Positions 10,187 through 35,503 of a DNA stretch of 45,176 nucleotides are shown here, one piece after another; the stretch's first letter is position 1, and the number at the start of each line of letters is the position of its first letter. The translations under genes were made by a program, and so were the position numbers. This DNA is from a virus. The stretch covers positions 1-45,176 of IMG/VR virus record IMGVR_UViG_3300037137_000754; one strand, written 5' to 3'. The notes under the pieces were generated by a model. The model worked only from the letters and a program-made list of their open reading frames with translations, ran no database searches and was not told the DNA's origin.

Positions 10187-10840
10187 ATGCCAAGTCCCCA
10201 AAATCAAATTAAAAGAAAAGAATGGATAAAAAATATAAGTATTTCTAAGAAAGGGCAACTTCCCTGGATTACTGGAAAACATCATACTGAAAAAGCAAAA
10301 GAAAAATGTAGGATAGCAAGAGCAAAACAAATTATAACCAAGGGAATTAAGAAAAAGATGAGTGAAGGAATTAAAAATGCACATCAAAGAAAAATATTTG
10401 GATTTCAAAAAGGAAAACCAGCATGGAATAAAGGGATACCTCGCACAGAGGAAACTAAAAATAAATTAAGAAAACCACATAGACCACATACCAAAGAGGA
10501 AATTGAAAAAATGAGAATTTGGAGTATAAATAACCCTAACAGAAAATTCAAGGATACCAGTATAGAATTAAAAATAGAATCAGAACTTCAACGAAGAAAT
10601 ATCAACTATCAAAAACAAGTTCCATTATGTAAAGTCGCAATAGTTGATTTCTACTTACCAGAACGTCAATTAGTAATTGAATGCGATGGTGACTATTGGC
10701 ATAATCAACTTGGAGCAAAAGAAAAAGACGAAGAAAAAACAAAAGCTCTAACCTTTAATGGATTTAATGTGTATCGTTTTTGGGGACACGAAATAAACGA
10801 ATCTGCTAAAAAATGTATAGATAAATTATTATTAAAATAA
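10187..10840 (+). CDS. Vsr-like (EDxHD-type) homing endonuclease, copy 1
   Basis: 217 residues. The basic N-terminal half has NUMOD-like DNA-binding repeats (KGKPAWNKGIPRTEETKNKL; HTKEEIEKMR). The C-terminal half (from about 122) is a very-short-patch-repair-like nuclease domain: TSIELKIE helix with a conserved Glu, then IVDFYLPE with the catalytic Asp, then VIECDGDYWH, then VYRFWGHEI. This order matches Vsr and the phage homing endonuclease family typified by I-Bth0305I, as well as DUF559 proteins. It is a free-standing mobile gene inserted between two ejection genes; its stop overlaps the ATG of 10840 (TAATG), so expression of the downstream gene has been preserved. A paralogue lies at 13762. 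Confidence 0.8.
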   Translation: MPSPQNQIKRKEWIKNISISKKGQLPWITGKHHTEKAKEKCRIARAKQIITKGIKKKMSEGIKNAHQRKIFGFQKGKPAWNKGIPRTEETKNKLRKPHRPHTKEEIEKMRIWSINNPNRKFKDTSIELKIESELQRRNINYQKQVPLCKVAIVDFYLPERQLVIECDGDYWHNQLGAKEKDEEKTKALTFNGFNVYRFWGHEINESAKKCIDKLLLK

Positions 10841-13660: not shown

Positions 13661-13688
13661 TTGACTTTACTTTTTGAAGTATTATAAT
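13661..13688 (+). promoter_or_regulatory. Sigma70 promoter TTGACT-16-TATAAT
   Basis: -35 TTGACT (13661-13666), 16-base spacer, perfect -10 TATAAT (13683-13688). Predicted transcription start is about 13694-13697, so the transcript would begin at the interlocked inverted repeat. It would drive the homing endonuclease at 13762 and possibly the lysis genes. Confidence 0.75.
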
Positions 13689-13693
13689 CAAAC

Positions 13694-13747
13694 TAAGGGT
13701 TGGCTCATTTTTTATGCCTGCCAAGAGCTAACCCTTAAGGCAGGCAT
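13694..13747 (+). promoter_or_regulatory. Interlocked inverted-repeat RNA leader, copy 1
   Basis: Stem A pairs 13694-13706 with 13725-13737 (13 bp including one G-U). Stem B pairs 13714-13722 with 13739-13747 (9 bp). The order is A-B-A'-B', with a T-rich linker between A and B. The loops of 2 bases (13723-13724 and 13737-13738) look too short for both full stems to form one classical pseudoknot, so alternative hairpins are likely. A 5-codon ATG ORF lies inside (13714-13731). The same architecture with covarying stems occurs at 18728. Confidence 0.7.
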
Positions 13748-13761
13748 TTGATTATAATATT

Positions 13762-14478
13762 ATGCCAAAGAAAGGATATAAACAAACAAAAGAACATAAA
13801 GAAAAAAGTAGAAAATTTGGATTTCAAAAAGGAATTCATCCTAAAACAGAATTTCAAAAAGGACAAAAAGCGTGGAATAAAGGAATAAAAGGATTATGTA
13901 AATCAAATTCAGGGAGTTTTCAAAAAGGAGAACATAAATCATCTAAAACAGAATTTAAGAAAGGAAATAAAATTAGATTAGGAATAACACACACAGAAGA
14001 AACAATAAAAAAAATACGACAAGCTCGTAAAGGTCAAATCAACACGGTTAAGGGAAAACATTGGAAAATAAAAAATACTTCTAAAATGGGTAAAGGACGA
14101 AAAGGTAGAAAATATCCTCATTCAGAAAAAACTAAAAATAAGTTAAGAAAATGGAATATTAACAATCCCAACAGGAAATTCAAAGATACCTCCATTGAAT
14201 TAAAAATAGAGGCAGAATTAAAAAAAAGAGAAATCAATTATCAAAAACAAATTCCATTATGTAATATCGCAATCGTAGATTTCTATTTACCAGAATACCG
14301 AATAGTTATCCAATGTGATGGCGAATATTACCATAACTTATCTTGGCAAAAAGAAAGAGATGAAAGACAAGATAAAGTATTAACATTCAACGGCTTCAAT
14401 ATCTATCGTTTCTGGGAGCACGAAATAAATGAATCTCCAGAAAAATGTATAAATTTATTAGATTTCTTAAACAAATAA
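13762..14478 (+). CDS. Vsr-like homing endonuclease, copy 2 (altered active-site motif)
   Basis: 238 residues. The N-terminal 130 residues are Lys-rich NUMOD-like repeats (FQKGQKAWNKGI; HTEETIKKIRQARKGQ; HSEKTKNKLRKWNINN). The C-terminal domain is closely related to the 10187 product (RKFKDTSIELKIEAEL, INYQKQIPLC, AIVDFYLPE, FNGFNIYRFW), so the two are recent paralogues. Copy 1 reads VIECDGDYWH, whereas this copy reads VIQCDGEYYH: the Glu of the E-x-D pair is Gln. The helix Glu (TSIE), the Asp (VDF) and the His are kept. It follows its own promoter and structured leader, sits at the ejection/lysis boundary and has no obvious Shine-Dalgarno. Activity may be reduced. Confidence 0.8.
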   Translation: MPKKGYKQTKEHKEKSRKFGFQKGIHPKTEFQKGQKAWNKGIKGLCKSNSGSFQKGEHKSSKTEFKKGNKIRLGITHTEETIKKIRQARKGQINTVKGKHWKIKNTSKMGKGRKGRKYPHSEKTKNKLRKWNINNPNRKFKDTSIELKIEAELKKREINYQKQIPLCNIAIVDFYLPEYRIVIQCDGEYYHNLSWQKERDERQDKVLTFNGFNIYRFWEHEINESPEKCINLLDFLNK

Positions 14479-14608: not shown

Positions 14609-14811
14609 CTGACCCTGTCATCCAACAAATTTTAGACCACATAGCAAAACTGAACGATGAATACGGACAAATATCAATAAGTGTGGCAGTTTTGAAATCG
14701 CAGATGGAAACGATAACTTGGTGGTTTCGGGCTTTTGGGATAGCGACAATGACTATGTTGATTAGTCAAATTGGACAATTACTTATTATGCGGAAAAATA
14801 ACAAAAAATAG
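14605..14811 (+). CDS. XhlA-like holin-associated protein
   Basis: 68 residues from the ATG at 14605, chosen over an upstream TTG at 14581 because it forms an ATGA overlap with the previous stop. Residues 1-38 are a helical, coiled-coil-like stretch (IQQILDHIAKLNDEYGQI, then VAVLKSQMETI), then WWFRAFG and a C-terminal transmembrane span (GIATMTMLISQIGQLLIM) ending in basic residues. This is the layout of the phage XhlA/haemolysin family, whose members cooperate with holins to release endolysin. Neighbouring holin and endolysin genes support the call. Confidence 0.6.
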   Translation: MTDPVIQQILDHIAKLNDEYGQISISVAVLKSQMETITWWFRAFGIATMTMLISQIGQLLIMRKNNKK

Positions 14812-14844
14812 TTCTTTTCAATCAAAAAACTGGAGGTGATTTCA

Positions 14845-15078
14845 ATGAACGATAGAACCGAACGAGCATTATTGTATAAGTGCATAGTTTGCTCAAAGAT
14901 TTTTGCCTGTTGGTTTGACGGATGCTATAAGTGTAGTGGCTGTTTGCGAAACCCAAAAGATTGCCCTAAAAGTTTTCCGTCTACCCGAAAAGATTTTTCT
15001 TCTGGACTTTGTCCTGTCTGCCAAGAGAAAAGAAAAGAAACTTGTTGGCAATGGTGGGGATGTGTAGCGAAGGCGTGA
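14845..15078 (+). CDS. Cys-rich zinc-ribbon-like protein
   Basis: 77 residues from ATG 14845, which has GGAGG 8 bases upstream (14832-14836); the GTG at 14836 overlaps that ribosome site and is unlikely. Cysteines come in pairs (CIVC, CYKCSGC, then a single C, CPVC, and CW..GC), compatible with two zinc-binding ribbons. No family is recognised. It sits within the lysis cassette and has one of the strongest Shine-Dalgarno sequences in the genome. Confidence 0.55.
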   Translation: MNDRTERALLYKCIVCSKIFACWFDGCYKCSGCLRNPKDCPKSFPSTRKDFSSGLCPVCQEKRKETCWQWWGCVAKA

Positions 15079-17210: not shown

Positions 17211-17273
17211 TCATCTGGGAAAATCAAGGCGGCGGGTGGCACATCTTCCCAGATGACTCGCCGCTTTTGATTT
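17211..17273 (+). promoter_or_regulatory. Interlocked inverted repeats in the early leader
   Basis: Arm A 17211-17221 pairs perfectly with 17246-17256 (11 bp). Arm B 17221-17234 pairs with 17259-17273 (two blocks, AAATCAA/TTGATTT and GCGGCG/CGCCGC, with a small bulge). The order is A-B-A'-B', so the two hairpins compete. A 21-codon ORF (17191-17256) spans the first hairpin. The element ends 7 bases before the 17280 start codon, so one conformer could control that gene. It could also be an iteron-like DNA site. Confidence 0.5.
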
Positions 17274-17279
17274 AAATTT

Positions 17280-17873
17280 ATGGAACAATTAACTTTATTC
17301 AAGGTAAGAGATTTAAGAAAAAAAGACCAATTCAAAATTGATGATATTTATATCAATGGCTATGCGAGAATTTGTGGGGTGAATGCTACATTGACTTATC
17401 TTTCTCTTTGCCGGCATGCCGAATTTGAAAGTCAAAAAGCATATCCATCTCAAAAGAAAATTGCCTTTGAGCTGGGAATTTCAATTGCCTCTGTCAAAAG
17501 AGGAATAAAAAATTTGCTCCAATATAACATTATTGACATAAGAAAAGAAAAGATGAGGGGTAAATTTGATAATAATGTTTATTACCTTTTAGACAAATCT
17601 GAATGGAAGCCAGCCATAGCTCCTGCTGATACACGGCAAAACCATAGCTCAAAAACCGTAGCTCACCAGCCGTATACGGCCAGAGATACCCAGAAGGATA
17701 ACAAAGTATTAAGGATAACAAATATAGAAGGATACAAAAAGAGAGCTTCTCTTAAAAAGAAACCTTACTACGACGGGAACGAAATGCGTTTTAGTCAAAA
17801 TAAATGGTGGGTTATTAAGGATGGCGAATGGTTAGAGTTCGCCGGCGAAGAAAAAGATATTGTGTTTAAATAA
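17280..17873 (+). CDS. Winged-helix replication-initiator-like protein
   Basis: 197 residues. Residues about 20-105 resemble the HTH_36/RepA-N type domain found in phage and plasmid replication initiators: helix ATLTYLSLCRHAEFE, then AYPSQKKIAFELGISIASVKRGIKNLLQYNII (the helix-turn-helix), then a wing with DIRKEKMRGKFDNNVYYL. The C-terminal half is basic and probably disordered. It is the first gene after the early promoter and is followed 3 bases later by a methyltransferase. A role in origin binding or early transcription control is likely. No helicase-loading motif is visible. Confidence 0.6.
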   Translation: MEQLTLFKVRDLRKKDQFKIDDIYINGYARICGVNATLTYLSLCRHAEFESQKAYPSQKKIAFELGISIASVKRGIKNLLQYNIIDIRKEKMRGKFDNNVYYLLDKSEWKPAIAPADTRQNHSSKTVAHQPYTARDTQKDNKVLRITNIEGYKKRASLKKKPYYDGNEMRFSQNKWWVIKDGEWLEFAGEEKDIVFK

Positions 17874-18481: not shown

Positions 18482-18703
18482 ATGAAACTTAGAAAAATCC
18501 CCCTAAATCAAAACTGGGATTGGGAACGAGAGAATTATCAGGAAGACAAATTTTATCATTCTGACAGAGAAAGAATTAAAGAGTTGTTGCCGGCAAAATT
18601 ACCTCCTTATGTGCCTCCTGTTATTCCGCCTAAGCTTGCTGAATACTGGAAACAAAATAAGTTAAAGAAAATATTGGCGAAATTGGCATCGCTTGACAAA
18701 TAG
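18482..18703 (+). CDS. Hypothetical 73-residue protein
   Basis: The charged N-terminal part (NWDWERENYQEDKFYHSDRERI) leads to a Pro-rich segment (LPPYVPPVIPPKL) and a basic helix. No family is recognised. The -35 box of the next promoter (18693) is embedded in its last codons. Confidence 0.5.
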   Translation: MKLRKIPLNQNWDWERENYQEDKFYHSDRERIKELLPAKLPPYVPPVIPPKLAEYWKQNKLKKILAKLASLDK

Positions 18704-18720
18704 TTTTAATAATCTATAAT
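18693..18720 (+). promoter_or_regulatory. Consensus sigma70 promoter TTGACA-16-TATAAT
   Basis: Both hexamers are perfect (18693-18698 and 18715-18720), spacer 16. The -35 lies inside the end of the upstream gene. Predicted start about 18726-18730, at or within a few bases of the interlocked inverted-repeat leader. Confidence 0.85.
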
Positions 18721-18727
18721 TAAAGAA

Positions 18728-18778
18728 TAGGGATGAGCCATTTTTTATGCCCGCCAAAGGCTCATCCCTTAGGCGGGC
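18728..18778 (+). promoter_or_regulatory. Interlocked inverted-repeat RNA leader, copy 2
   Basis: Stem A pairs 18729-18739 with 18759-18769 (11 bp, all canonical). Stem B pairs 18749-18755 with 18772-18778 (7 bp). A 9-base T-rich linker (ATTTTTTAT) joins A and B, as in copy 1 at 13694. Relative to copy 1, at least four A-stem positions and one B-stem position are changed on both arms so that pairing is preserved. It precedes the HNH homing endonuclease by 13 bases. An ATG at 18747 in the linker is in frame with that gene. Confidence 0.75.
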
Positions 18779-18791
18779 TTTAATTAACAAT

Positions 18792-19532
18792 ATGAAAATT
18801 ATACATACACCAATTTTTCATACCGAATTAACTAAAAAGAAAATAAGTGATGCCTTAAAAGGTAAACCTAGTGGAAGATTAGGGAAAAAACATTCGGAAG
18901 AAACAAAGAAAAGAATAAGCAAGAAAGTTAGAGAAAGATATAATAATCCAAAATTCAGAGAAAATTTTAAGAAAATAATGAAATGGAAAATGAACGAAGA
19001 AGAAGTCAAAAAAAAGATAAGTCAATCTCGTAAAGGAAAGCATCTTTCTGAAGAAACAAAACAGAAAATAAGAATGGCAAATAAAGGAAAAAAGCTATCG
19101 AAAGAAACCAGAAAGAAAATGAGTGAAGCAAAAAGGAAAATGAGTGAAGAAACGAAAAGAAAAATAAGTGAAGCCAATAAAGGAAAACATCATTCAGAAG
19201 CAACAAAAAGAAAATTAAGTAAAATGTTAAAGGGAAAACCTCAACCTTGGAATAGTGGGAAGAAATGCAATCTTTGGATAAATGGTAAAGGAAATGAACC
19301 ATATCCGCCAGAATGGAGAGAAACATTAAAAAGAGCTATCAGAGAAAGAGATATTTATACCTGTTATATTTGTAGGCAATATGGCAATGAAGTTCATCAT
19401 AAAAATTACAACAAAAAGAATTGTAATCCAGATAATTTAATTACACTCTGTCATAATTGTCATAATAAAACAAGAAAAAATAGAAAATTTTGGATAAATT
19501 ATTTCAAAAGGGGGTTATGGGTCGGCTATTGA
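18792..19532 (+). CDS. NUMOD3-HNH homing endonuclease
   Basis: 246 residues from ATG 18792. An in-frame ATG at 18747 would add 15 residues but lies inside the structured leader, so 18792 is preferred. Residues from about 14 to 170 are five or more NUMOD3-type DNA-binding repeats (HSEETKKRISKK; LSEETKQKIRMANKGK; LSKETRKKMSEAKRK; HSEATKRKLSKMLKGK). The C-terminus is an HNH nuclease with zinc cysteines: CYICRQYGNEVHHKNY, then NPDNLITLCHNCHNK. Such free-standing genes move by cutting cognate sites in relatives. The promoter for the next gene overlaps its stop codon. Confidence 0.85.
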   Translation: MKIIHTPIFHTELTKKKISDALKGKPSGRLGKKHSEETKKRISKKVRERYNNPKFRENFKKIMKWKMNEEEVKKKISQSRKGKHLSEETKQKIRMANKGKKLSKETRKKMSEAKRKMSEETKRKISEANKGKHHSEATKRKLSKMLKGKPQPWNSGKKCNLWINGKGNEPYPPEWRETLKRAIRERDIYTCYICRQYGNEVHHKNYNKKNCNPDNLITLCHNCHNKTRKNRKFWINYFKRGLWVGY

Positions 19533-19557
19533 CAAGGGTGTTGGGTTAATTTATTAT
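19529..19557 (+). promoter_or_regulatory. Sigma70 promoter TTGACA-17-TATTAT
   Basis: The -35 TTGACA (19529-19534) overlaps the TGA stop of the HNH gene. -10 TATTAT is at 19552-19557. The predicted start (about 19563-19565) coincides with the ATG of the HTH gene at 19564, so the first message may be leaderless. Confidence 0.75.
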
Positions 19558-19563
19558 TAAGGT

Positions 19564-19731
19564 ATGAAACTCAAACAAAAATCTCAAATGAGTGAGAAAA
19601 CAAAAATGATATTGAAAGAAAGAAAAAAAGGCAAATCTATTGTAGAGATATCCCGGACTTTTAATTGTTCCCGGCAACTGGTTTATGCTAAATTGAAGAA
19701 ATATGGCGACCCTTTAGACGAGAGGGCTTGA
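19564..19731 (+). CDS. Small helix-turn-helix DNA-binding protein
   Basis: 55 residues. Residues 24-47 (KSIVEISRTFNCSRQLVYAKLKKYG) form a resolvase/Hin-type helix-turn-helix, with no other domain. The basic N-terminus may contact DNA. Lying between two strong promoters, both overlapping stop codons, it is a good candidate for a local transcription regulator. Its transcript could be leaderless. Confidence 0.6.
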   Translation: MKLKQKSQMSEKTKMILKERKKGKSIVEISRTFNCSRQLVYAKLKKYGDPLDERA

Positions 19732-19756
19732 CAAGGGTATTGCCTTGCGAGATAAT
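19728..19756 (+). promoter_or_regulatory. Sigma70 promoter TTGACA-17-GATAAT
   Basis: -35 at 19728-19733 overlaps the TGA stop of the HTH gene; -10 GATAAT at 19751-19756. Predicted start about 19761-19763, at the G-run that opens the interlocked leader. The spacer begins AGGGTATTG, like AGGGTGTTG in the 19529 promoter, suggesting a shared binding site or duplication. Confidence 0.75.
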
Positions 19757-19762
19757 GGAAGG

Positions 19763-19801
19763 GGTAGGGAAAACTCCAAAAGGTCGCCTACCGGAAGGAG
19801 T
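19763..19801 (+). promoter_or_regulatory. Short H-type pseudoknot-like leader
   Basis: Stem A GGTAGG (19763-19768) pairs with CCTACC (19787-19792). Stem B ACTCC (19773-19777) pairs with GGAGT (19797-19801). The order is A-B-A'-B' with loops of 4, 9 and 4 bases, which is geometrically plausible for an RNA pseudoknot. A competing hairpin, CCGGA/TCCGG around AGGAG (19791-19805), would break both. It begins at the predicted transcription start and lies 27 bases before the 19829 start codon. Confidence 0.45.
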
Positions 19802-34918: not shown

Positions 34919-35503
34919 ATGCCAAGAGGAATTTTCAAAAATCCGAAAGAAAGAAATGAGAAAATTAGCAAAGCATGTAGGGGTATAAAACGCTCAAATG
35001 AAACTAAAAGAAAAATTAGTCAATCATTAAAAGGAAACAAAAGAGGAGTAGGTTCAAAACATACTAATGAATGGAAAGAAAGATTGAGGGAAAAAATGAA
35101 AGGAAATCAATTTGCTAAAGGTTATAAAAATGTATTAGGCAAACATTGGAAAGTAAAAGGAATTCCATATTGGAAAGGTAAAACAAAAGAATTAAGTCCG
35201 AGGTGGATAAAAGATAGAACTAAATTAAAAAAAGATAATGAGAGAAATGACCCCACTTATCAAGAATGGCGATTGAATGTTTGGAAAAGAGATAATTTCA
35301 AATGTAAAATAAATAACGAAGATTGTAATGGGAAAATAATAGCTCATCATATTCTTTCTTGGCGAAAATATCCAGAATTAAGATATAACATTAACAATGG
35401 CATCACTTTATGCCAAGCCCATCATCCGAGAAAAAGGGCTAAAGAGAAACGATTAATTCCTATGTTTCAGGAATTAGTGTTAGTATCAAAAGAATTAATT
35501 TGA
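34919..35503 (+). CDS. NUMOD-HNH homing endonuclease (head region)
   Basis: 194 residues. The N-terminus carries NUMOD3-like repeats (RNEKISKACRGIKRSNETKRKISQSLKGN). The C-terminal nuclease is YQEWRLNVWKRDNFKCKI, HHILSWRKYPELRY with H143-H144, NINNGITLCQAHHPRKR: an HNH of the homing type. It is inserted between DUF3008 and a small conserved-looking gene, and its TGA overlaps the TTG start of that gene, keeping expression. Not a sequence paralogue of the 18792 HNH beyond shared motifs. Confidence 0.82.
   Translation: MPRGIFKNPKERNEKISKACRGIKRSNETKRKISQSLKGNKRGVGSKHTNEWKERLREKMKGNQFAKGYKNVLGKHWKVKGIPYWKGKTKELSPRWIKDRTKLKKDNERNDPTYQEWRLNVWKRDNFKCKINNEDCNGKIIAHHILSWRKYPELRYNINNGITLCQAHHPRKRAKEKRLIPMFQELVLVSKELI

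Follow-up and report, generated by a model that had tools for sequence, protein, structure and literature searches.

Two nuclease genes in this viral DNA are each preceded by a promoter and a set of interleaved inverted repeats, raising the question of what the repeats encode and why genes of different nuclease families should share them. We analysed the whole 45,176-nt stretch (hereafter the window), together with relatives of the repeats and of the nucleases in other viral and bacterial sequences.

Two short leaders with compensatory stem changes

The two elements, E1 (13694–13747) and E2 (18729–18778), share the order A–B–A′–B′, a σ70-like promoter that places stem A at the predicted +1, and an invariant linker (CATTTTTTATGCCYGCCAA). 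Their parts are:

13661–13688, + strand: E1 promoter (TTGACT, 16-nt spacer, TATAAT)
13680–13692, + strand: E1 outer repeat C, TATTATAATCAAA, which includes the −10 box and lies outside E1's own transcript
13694–13706, + strand: E1 stem A, 5′ arm, TAAGGGTTGGCTC, starting at the predicted +1
13714–13722, + strand: E1 stem B, 5′ arm, ATGCCTGCC, then AA
13725–13737, + strand: E1 stem A, 3′ arm, GAGCTAACCCTTA, then A
13739–13747, + strand: E1 stem B, 3′ arm, GGCAGGCAT
13747–13759, + strand: E1 outer repeat C′, TTTGATTATAATA, in the initiation region 5′ of ATG 13762
13762–14478, + strand: E1 endonuclease ORF, NUMOD3 plus DUF559/MTES_1575/Vsr-like (Pfam)
18693–18720, + strand: E2 promoter (TTGACA 18693–18698, 16-nt spacer, TATAAT 18715–18720)
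18717–18725, + strand: E2 outer repeat C, TAATTAAAG, overlapping the −10 box
18729–18739, + strand: E2 stem A, 5′ arm, AGGGATGAGCC
18740–18746, + strand: E2 linker, ATTTTTT, the same in E1 and in the L017 copy described below
18747–18755, + strand: E2 stem B, 5′ arm, (ATG)CCCGCC, then AAA
18759–18769, + strand: E2 stem A, 3′ arm, GGCTCATCCCT, then TA
18772–18778, + strand: E2 stem B, 3′ arm, GGCGGGC
18778–18786, + strand: E2 outer repeat C′, CTTTAATTA, shortly 5′ of start codon 18792
18747–19532, + strand: E2 endonuclease ORF, likely start ATG 18792, NUMOD3 plus a weak HNH_3 match (Pfam)
17211–17273, + strand: third A–B–A′–B′ leader, directly 5′ of the replication-initiator ORF at 17280

Both E2 promoter boxes are full consensus, with 8 nt between the −10 box and stem A. 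The end of B′ lies 13 nt from ATG 18792 in E2 and 14 nt from ATG 13762 in E1. The ATG inside E2 stem B (18747) shares the endonuclease reading frame and would add MPAKGSSLRRALINN; its E1 counterpart is out of frame. Judged by their NUMOD/HNH or Vsr-like domains and their position between phage genes, both ORFs would class as freestanding homing endonucleases.

The stems differ in a patterned way. Reading stem A from its inner end outward, pairs 1–4 change from E1 to E2 as C–G (unchanged), T–A to C–G, C–G to G–C and G–C to A–T; pairs 5–7 as G·T to G–C, T–A (unchanged) and T–A to A–T. Further out, three G–C pairs and an A–T pair are the same, and the outermost pair is lost in E2. Stem B carries one double compensatory change, T–A to C–G. 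The four two-sided changes in A and one in B reported in a preliminary description of this DNA are thus present, alongside a single one-sided change in stem A (the G·U to G–C replacement). Its account of a common layout also holds, with A–B–A′–B′ order, linker, upstream promoter and downstream endonuclease all found, as does its assignment of the nucleases to different families (DUF559/MTES_1575/Vsr-like for E1, weakly HNH_3 for E2, with NUMOD3 in both).

Scanning the window for a crossing-helix layout picked out three + strand sites (E1, E2 and 17211) and no − strand site. Dinucleotide shuffles of the window yielded the layout in 0/80 cases with a narrow setting and in one match with a broad setting, and the 19-mer linker occurs twice against 0.09 occurrences expected (three mismatches allowed). 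The window has no match to Rfam at gathering scores, and no tRNA.

The leader at 17211 (A arms TCATCTGGGAA/TTCCCAGATGA, B arms AAATCAAGGCGGCG/CGCCGCTTTTGATTT) is without the T-rich linker, and its stem A is not at +1. The adjoining replication initiator has a homologue (L191, 37% identity) whose leader shows the same layout, on the reverse strand near 14790–14950. Stem B is 14 bp in both, with one compensatory change; the stem A sequences are unrelated.

Exact-pattern scans of viral contigs returned one additional match, L017, a third short-type copy from another virus whose stem A again differs by two-sided changes. It precedes the remnant of a nuclease ORF (MPKGVYKHKRKS...) and then a tnpB gene; within L017:3429–3593 the leader, a 29-codon nuclease remnant and an intact tnpB ORF directly behind it follow one another. 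L090 has the same A–B–A′–B′ order in a different sequence, without T6. The short-type sequence pattern occurs at 57 loci in the GTDB collection, none with a matching A stem, and BLAST brought up no related element in named phages or plasmids.

The window contains two more NUMOD3 nuclease genes (10187–10840 and 34919–35503), and neither has such a leader; the first is of the DUF559 type, like the E1 nuclease. Most window ORFs have no Shine–Dalgarno (SD) sequence, just AT-rich sequence 5′ of the start codon.

A longer leader type with covarying crossing helices

Inspection of nuclease relatives revealed two larger leaders in L088, composed of a promoter, A at +1, ATTTTTTATG after A, then B, A′, B′, an SD sequence and ATG. 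Using sequence patterns and a covariance model, R1 (fitted to P1, the long-type counterpart of stem A, alone), we gathered 19 distinct copies of this long type from 12 viral records and one bacterial metagenome-assembled genome (MAG) contig. The viral copies number 17, one of which recurs in a second record (L201/L202). The other two lie together on the MAG contig, which came from a scan of 345 genomes in the phylum to which a Desulfuromonadaceae MAG belongs; no copy turned up in 301 genomes of the phylum that includes an Anaerolineales MAG. Weak model matches in L168, L169 and L211 were discarded on inspection as not real.

From 5′ to 3′, the long type consists of the P1 5′ arm (P1 being 15 bp), GATTTTTTATGTYYAA, the P2 5′ arm, (G)AGTA, the P3 5′ arm and N5 ACTTAA, followed by the P1 3′ arm, CA, the P3 3′ arm, GAAA, the P2 3′ arm, a U-rich stretch, GGAG(G) and ATG. 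P1 crosses P2 plus P3, and the loops are, judged by length, long enough for the helices to coexist. The AGTA and GAA(A) stretches that face each other between P2 and P3 appear to resemble a bulged-G motif.

Pairing is kept while sequence is not: P3 alone reads (5′/3′ arms) GGTG/CACC, ACGT/ACGT, GGGT/ACCC, AGGT/ACCT, AGCG/CGCT, AGTC/GACT and others in different copies. On hand-set arms, pairing reaches 96% in P1, 99% in P2 and 98.5% in P3, values attained by 0/5000 shuffles of the 3′ arms, with the P2 and P3 arms picked by eye (a bias towards pairing) and the shuffles uncorrected for relatedness among leaders that are 46–86% identical. Double changes occur at 15/15 positions of P1, 6/6 of P2 and 4/4 of P3 (25/25 in all), extending across homologues the two-sided pattern first described for E1 and E2. 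Within the helices, G–U pairs outnumber A–C mismatches 38 to 2 (p about 1e-9), or 15 to 2 when each position is counted once (p 0.002); selection has therefore acted on the sense (+ strand) RNA, not on a DNA cruciform.

Promoter geometry is common to both types. In 20/21 elements, TTGACA-like and TATAAT/TATACT-like boxes are spaced 16–18 nt apart and stem A begins 5–8 nt after the −10 box, at the predicted +1, the exception being L090. The distance from the leader end (B′) to the endonuclease start codon is 13–20 nt, and the leader RNA measures 50–105 nt. Eight leader-bearing loci gave no relevant Rfam match (E up to 2 or 5), including to HEARO/OMEGA RNA and self-cleaving ribozymes.

E1 and E2 agree with the long-type layout in having stem A at +1, A–B–A′–B′ order and ATTTTTTATG directly after A. 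R1 matches in the window up to E 10 do not include E1 or E2, and on the L017 record R1 gave one false weak match, elsewhere. We consider a common origin of the two types likely, given the layout, the promoter spacing, the matching position of ATTTTTTATG and the distance that separates leader and nuclease start, and do not file E1 and E2 as long-type members.

Alternative folds and an outer repeat

In the short type, just 1–2 nt separate A′ from B′ and 2–3 nt separate B from A′, with stem A at 11–13 bp. A simple H-type pseudoknot with both full stems fails on geometric grounds, a gap of 1–2 nt being too small to span a helix of 11–13 bp. Full A and full B would therefore be mutually exclusive, and we accordingly describe the short type as a two-state leader. 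The best folds with A and with B differ by about 3.3 (E1), 2.5 (E2) and 0.6 (L017) kcal/mol.

A further repeat, C:C′, was overlooked in the earlier account; one arm holds the −10 box and the other the start region. In E1 the two arms match perfectly over 13 bp, ranking first of 39 window genes and reached by 0/2000 shuffles; in E2 they match perfectly over 9 bp, ranking second of the 39 and reached by 11/2000 shuffles. The longest perfect stem between the same two positions is ≤6 in the other window genes. RNA from E1's own promoter lacks arm C, which lies upstream of its predicted +1, whereas the 3′ arm covers the start region—an arrangement of the kind found in I-TevI read-through masking. 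Folding predicts that the mean unpaired probability of E1 positions −15 to −1 falls from 0.68 in its own transcript to 0.03 in a read-through transcript. For E2, folding does not predict that C:C′ forms, and the 9-bp repeat is simply present; C:C′ is weak in L017 and imperfect in L090.

A probable portable leader and its possible function

Most of the genes behind the leaders encode HNH_3 proteins with or without NUMOD3, with HNH/HNH_5 at L198 and the Vsr/DUF559 type at E1; the ORF behind L143, which has no Pfam match, was taken from its sequence for a probable homing-type protein. Among the long-type copies, 18/19 precede a homing-endonuclease gene (one of them decayed) and the other a replisome-organizer gene. 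Distances between leaders show no correlation with those between their nucleases (Mantel rho 0.07, p 0.26). Promoter and leader thus behave as a module that serves several nuclease families, in agreement with the original proposal that what these genes have in common is the leader and not the nuclease. That proposal had regarded absence of the element from close relatives of the endonuclease as evidence against it. Such relatives of the E1 nuclease do exist, L078 (55%) and L079 (69%) both being without the leader, and they point to a separable module rather than to a lack of function.

The same description had also suggested a mobile RNA unit; the copies do not show an RNA moving on its own, with a single one preceding a non-nuclease gene (L173/G005, replisome organizer phrog_13246) and a single one a decayed nuclease. 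At the latter (L205 in G025, 1501–1700), the long-type leader stands directly before an HNH nuclease cut down to its C-terminus, a case of a leader outliving its gene. A nuclease may also have been lost at L173, because HNH genes sit directly 5′ of the replisome-organizer gene in phages Pan5 and PinkBerry MD08. Among the loci examined, there were no flanking-gene relatives usable for an empty-site comparison that would mark the limits of the inserted unit.

Most likely, the module is a portable cis-acting leader that would limit translation of the endonuclease. In its full form—a cis-acting 5′ leader with its own promoter, two crossing helices and, in E1, a second layer resembling that of I-TevI—this is the reading we favour with some confidence. 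Transcription would start at the first base of stem A. In the long type, P1 would form a true pseudoknot with P2 plus P3; A and B of the short type, whose energies are nearly equal and whose linkage is too tight for both to form at once, would make a two-state switch. Fold choice would then set how often the endonuclease is translated, a proposal based on a leader that adjoins the ribosome landing site on its upstream side and on a start-codon distance that is kept while sequence is not. In the E1 second layer, read-through transcripts would include C, so that C:C′ pairing covers the start region, and E1's own transcripts, starting downstream of C, would leave it open.

In the long type, predicted SD opening shows no consistent difference between the P1 and P2 states, so that no simple SD-masking switch is apparent, and masking of the SD by B′ when P2 is open is inconsistent over copies. 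A leader peptide from the conserved ATG was rejected: lengths differ, L143 reads ATG TAA, L210 has ATA and L214 is without ATG.

Several known systems offer parallels. HEARO/OMEGA RNA is a conserved structured RNA beside the HNH nuclease gene of mobile elements, where it guides IscB; the leaders share the adjoining position, but HEARO/OMEGA RNA is longer, and here a 5′ leader of 50–105 nt serves several NUMOD3 nuclease families and has no Rfam match. In SAM-II, preQ1-II and ribosomal-protein leader pseudoknots, the SD or start codon lies within the knot or in an exclusive pairing. Those leaders also place a small pseudoknot beside the ribosome site, but pairing of the SD or start codon is not seen in ours, nor is an Rfam match.

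In T4-like phages, structures in leader RNA are already known to regulate homing endonucleases (PMC2988022). RNA structures of T4 I-TevI, I-TevII, I-TevIII and segB, and of Aeh1 mobE, mask the ribosome-binding site (RBS) on read-through transcripts (PMC2988022). E1, and in part E2, resembles this group in having its own promoter in the 5′ arm and the start region as the 3′ arm, such that read-through RNA alone would be masked. The I-TevI group differs in its simple single hairpin and its phage late promoter; the leaders here have a host-type σ70 promoter, extra crossing helices downstream of +1 and a conserved linker. The seg43(25) gene of Aeromonas phage 25 has a stable hairpin directly upstream of an unmasked RBS (PMC2988022); the leaders similarly put stable structure at the upstream edge of a homing-endonuclease landing site, but as a shared covarying family with crossing helices rather than a single hairpin. 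We found no covarying crossing-helix leader family before homing genes in Rfam or the open-access literature, though it may be described elsewhere.

These data suggest that homing endonucleases draw on a portable RNA control unit. Expression of freestanding homing endonucleases outside T4-like phages is largely unstudied; a promoter-plus-RNA cassette before unrelated nucleases would be a common control device and a sequence handle for finding more such genes, and lets the question of control be addressed with a plasmid reporter. The long type is in addition a structured RNA family with strong covariation and no Rfam entry, whose conserved loops call for contact with a ligand, protein or ribosome.

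The likeliest alternative is a leader that times early phage genes, either as a riboswitch sensing a metabolite or ion or through binding of a phage or host protein, and that homing genes have borrowed. Long conserved single-stranded stretches (TTTTTATGTYYAA, ACTTAACCG), the AGUA/GAA-like internal loop between P2 and P3 with its likeness to a bulged-G motif, the long-type copy before a replisome-organizer gene and the A–B–A′–B′ leaders before replication initiators in the window and L191 all fit it. We nevertheless think it rather improbable, since no Rfam family matches, there is no conserved expression platform (SD masking being inconsistent) and the replisome-organizer copy could be a relic of a lost endonuclease, as the Pan5 and PinkBerry MD08 arrangement indicates. 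A stronger version, doubtful in our view, would unite the long type and its short relatives in one new sensory leader class timing early phage genes (replication initiators) and captured, promoter included, by homing endonucleases of several families; if true, such capture would let selfish genes fire in step with phage replication. Since leaders of similar layout also precede replication genes, the function need not be homing-specific even for a leader limiting translation.

A 5′-terminal structure could instead shield the endonuclease mRNA from 5′-end-dependent decay without any switching. Stem A at the predicted +1 in 20/21 elements is where a protective 5′ hairpin is expected, but a single hairpin would be enough, leaving unexplained the conserved P2, P3, loops and linker as well as a spacing between B′ and the start codon that hardly varies; we regard this as unlikely. 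Less plausible still is either a self-cleaving ribozyme or a small RNA whose intrinsic terminator would consist of stem B plus a U-rich tract. Crossing helices in a mobile-gene context recall the former, and stem B is followed by 5–7 U in some copies (L143, L173). No Rfam ribozyme matches, however, and a hammerhead-like catalytic core (CUGANGA...GAAA), looked for by eye, was not found; with transcription of the leader already beginning at its own promoter, cutting it would free nothing, and in most copies the U tracts are interrupted, with the start codon (and in most an SD) directly after.

Overlapping inverted repeats could also work as DNA, in a recombination site, an origin or an endonuclease operator like that of I-TevI. 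Nested repeats adjoin nuclease genes, C includes the −10 box and an A–B–A′–B′ element also stands before a replication-initiator gene; the long-type excess of G–T over A–C (38 against 2) in one strand orientation is not expected of a DNA hairpin or operator, and arm sequences vary freely while pairing is kept, making this reading very improbable. Chance palindromes in an AT-rich intergenic region, though every repeat is short when taken singly, are already refuted by the 0/80 shuffles, the third copy in another virus (L017) and the long-type family.

Two other repeats were seen in passing. In one Bacteroidetes MAG (L026, L028, L048, L050, L061 and L069), a dispersed repeat with TTTTTATGCCTGCCARACAGCAGCAGGCAGGCGG occurs in at least six places, with GGCGGCATAAAAAGGC near it; it is unrelated to the leaders. 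In the window, a promoter-like string, TTGACAAGGGT, occurs twice (19527–19560 and 19727–19790), flanking a small HTH-type ORF (MKLKQKSQMSEKTKMILKERKKGKSIVEISRTF).
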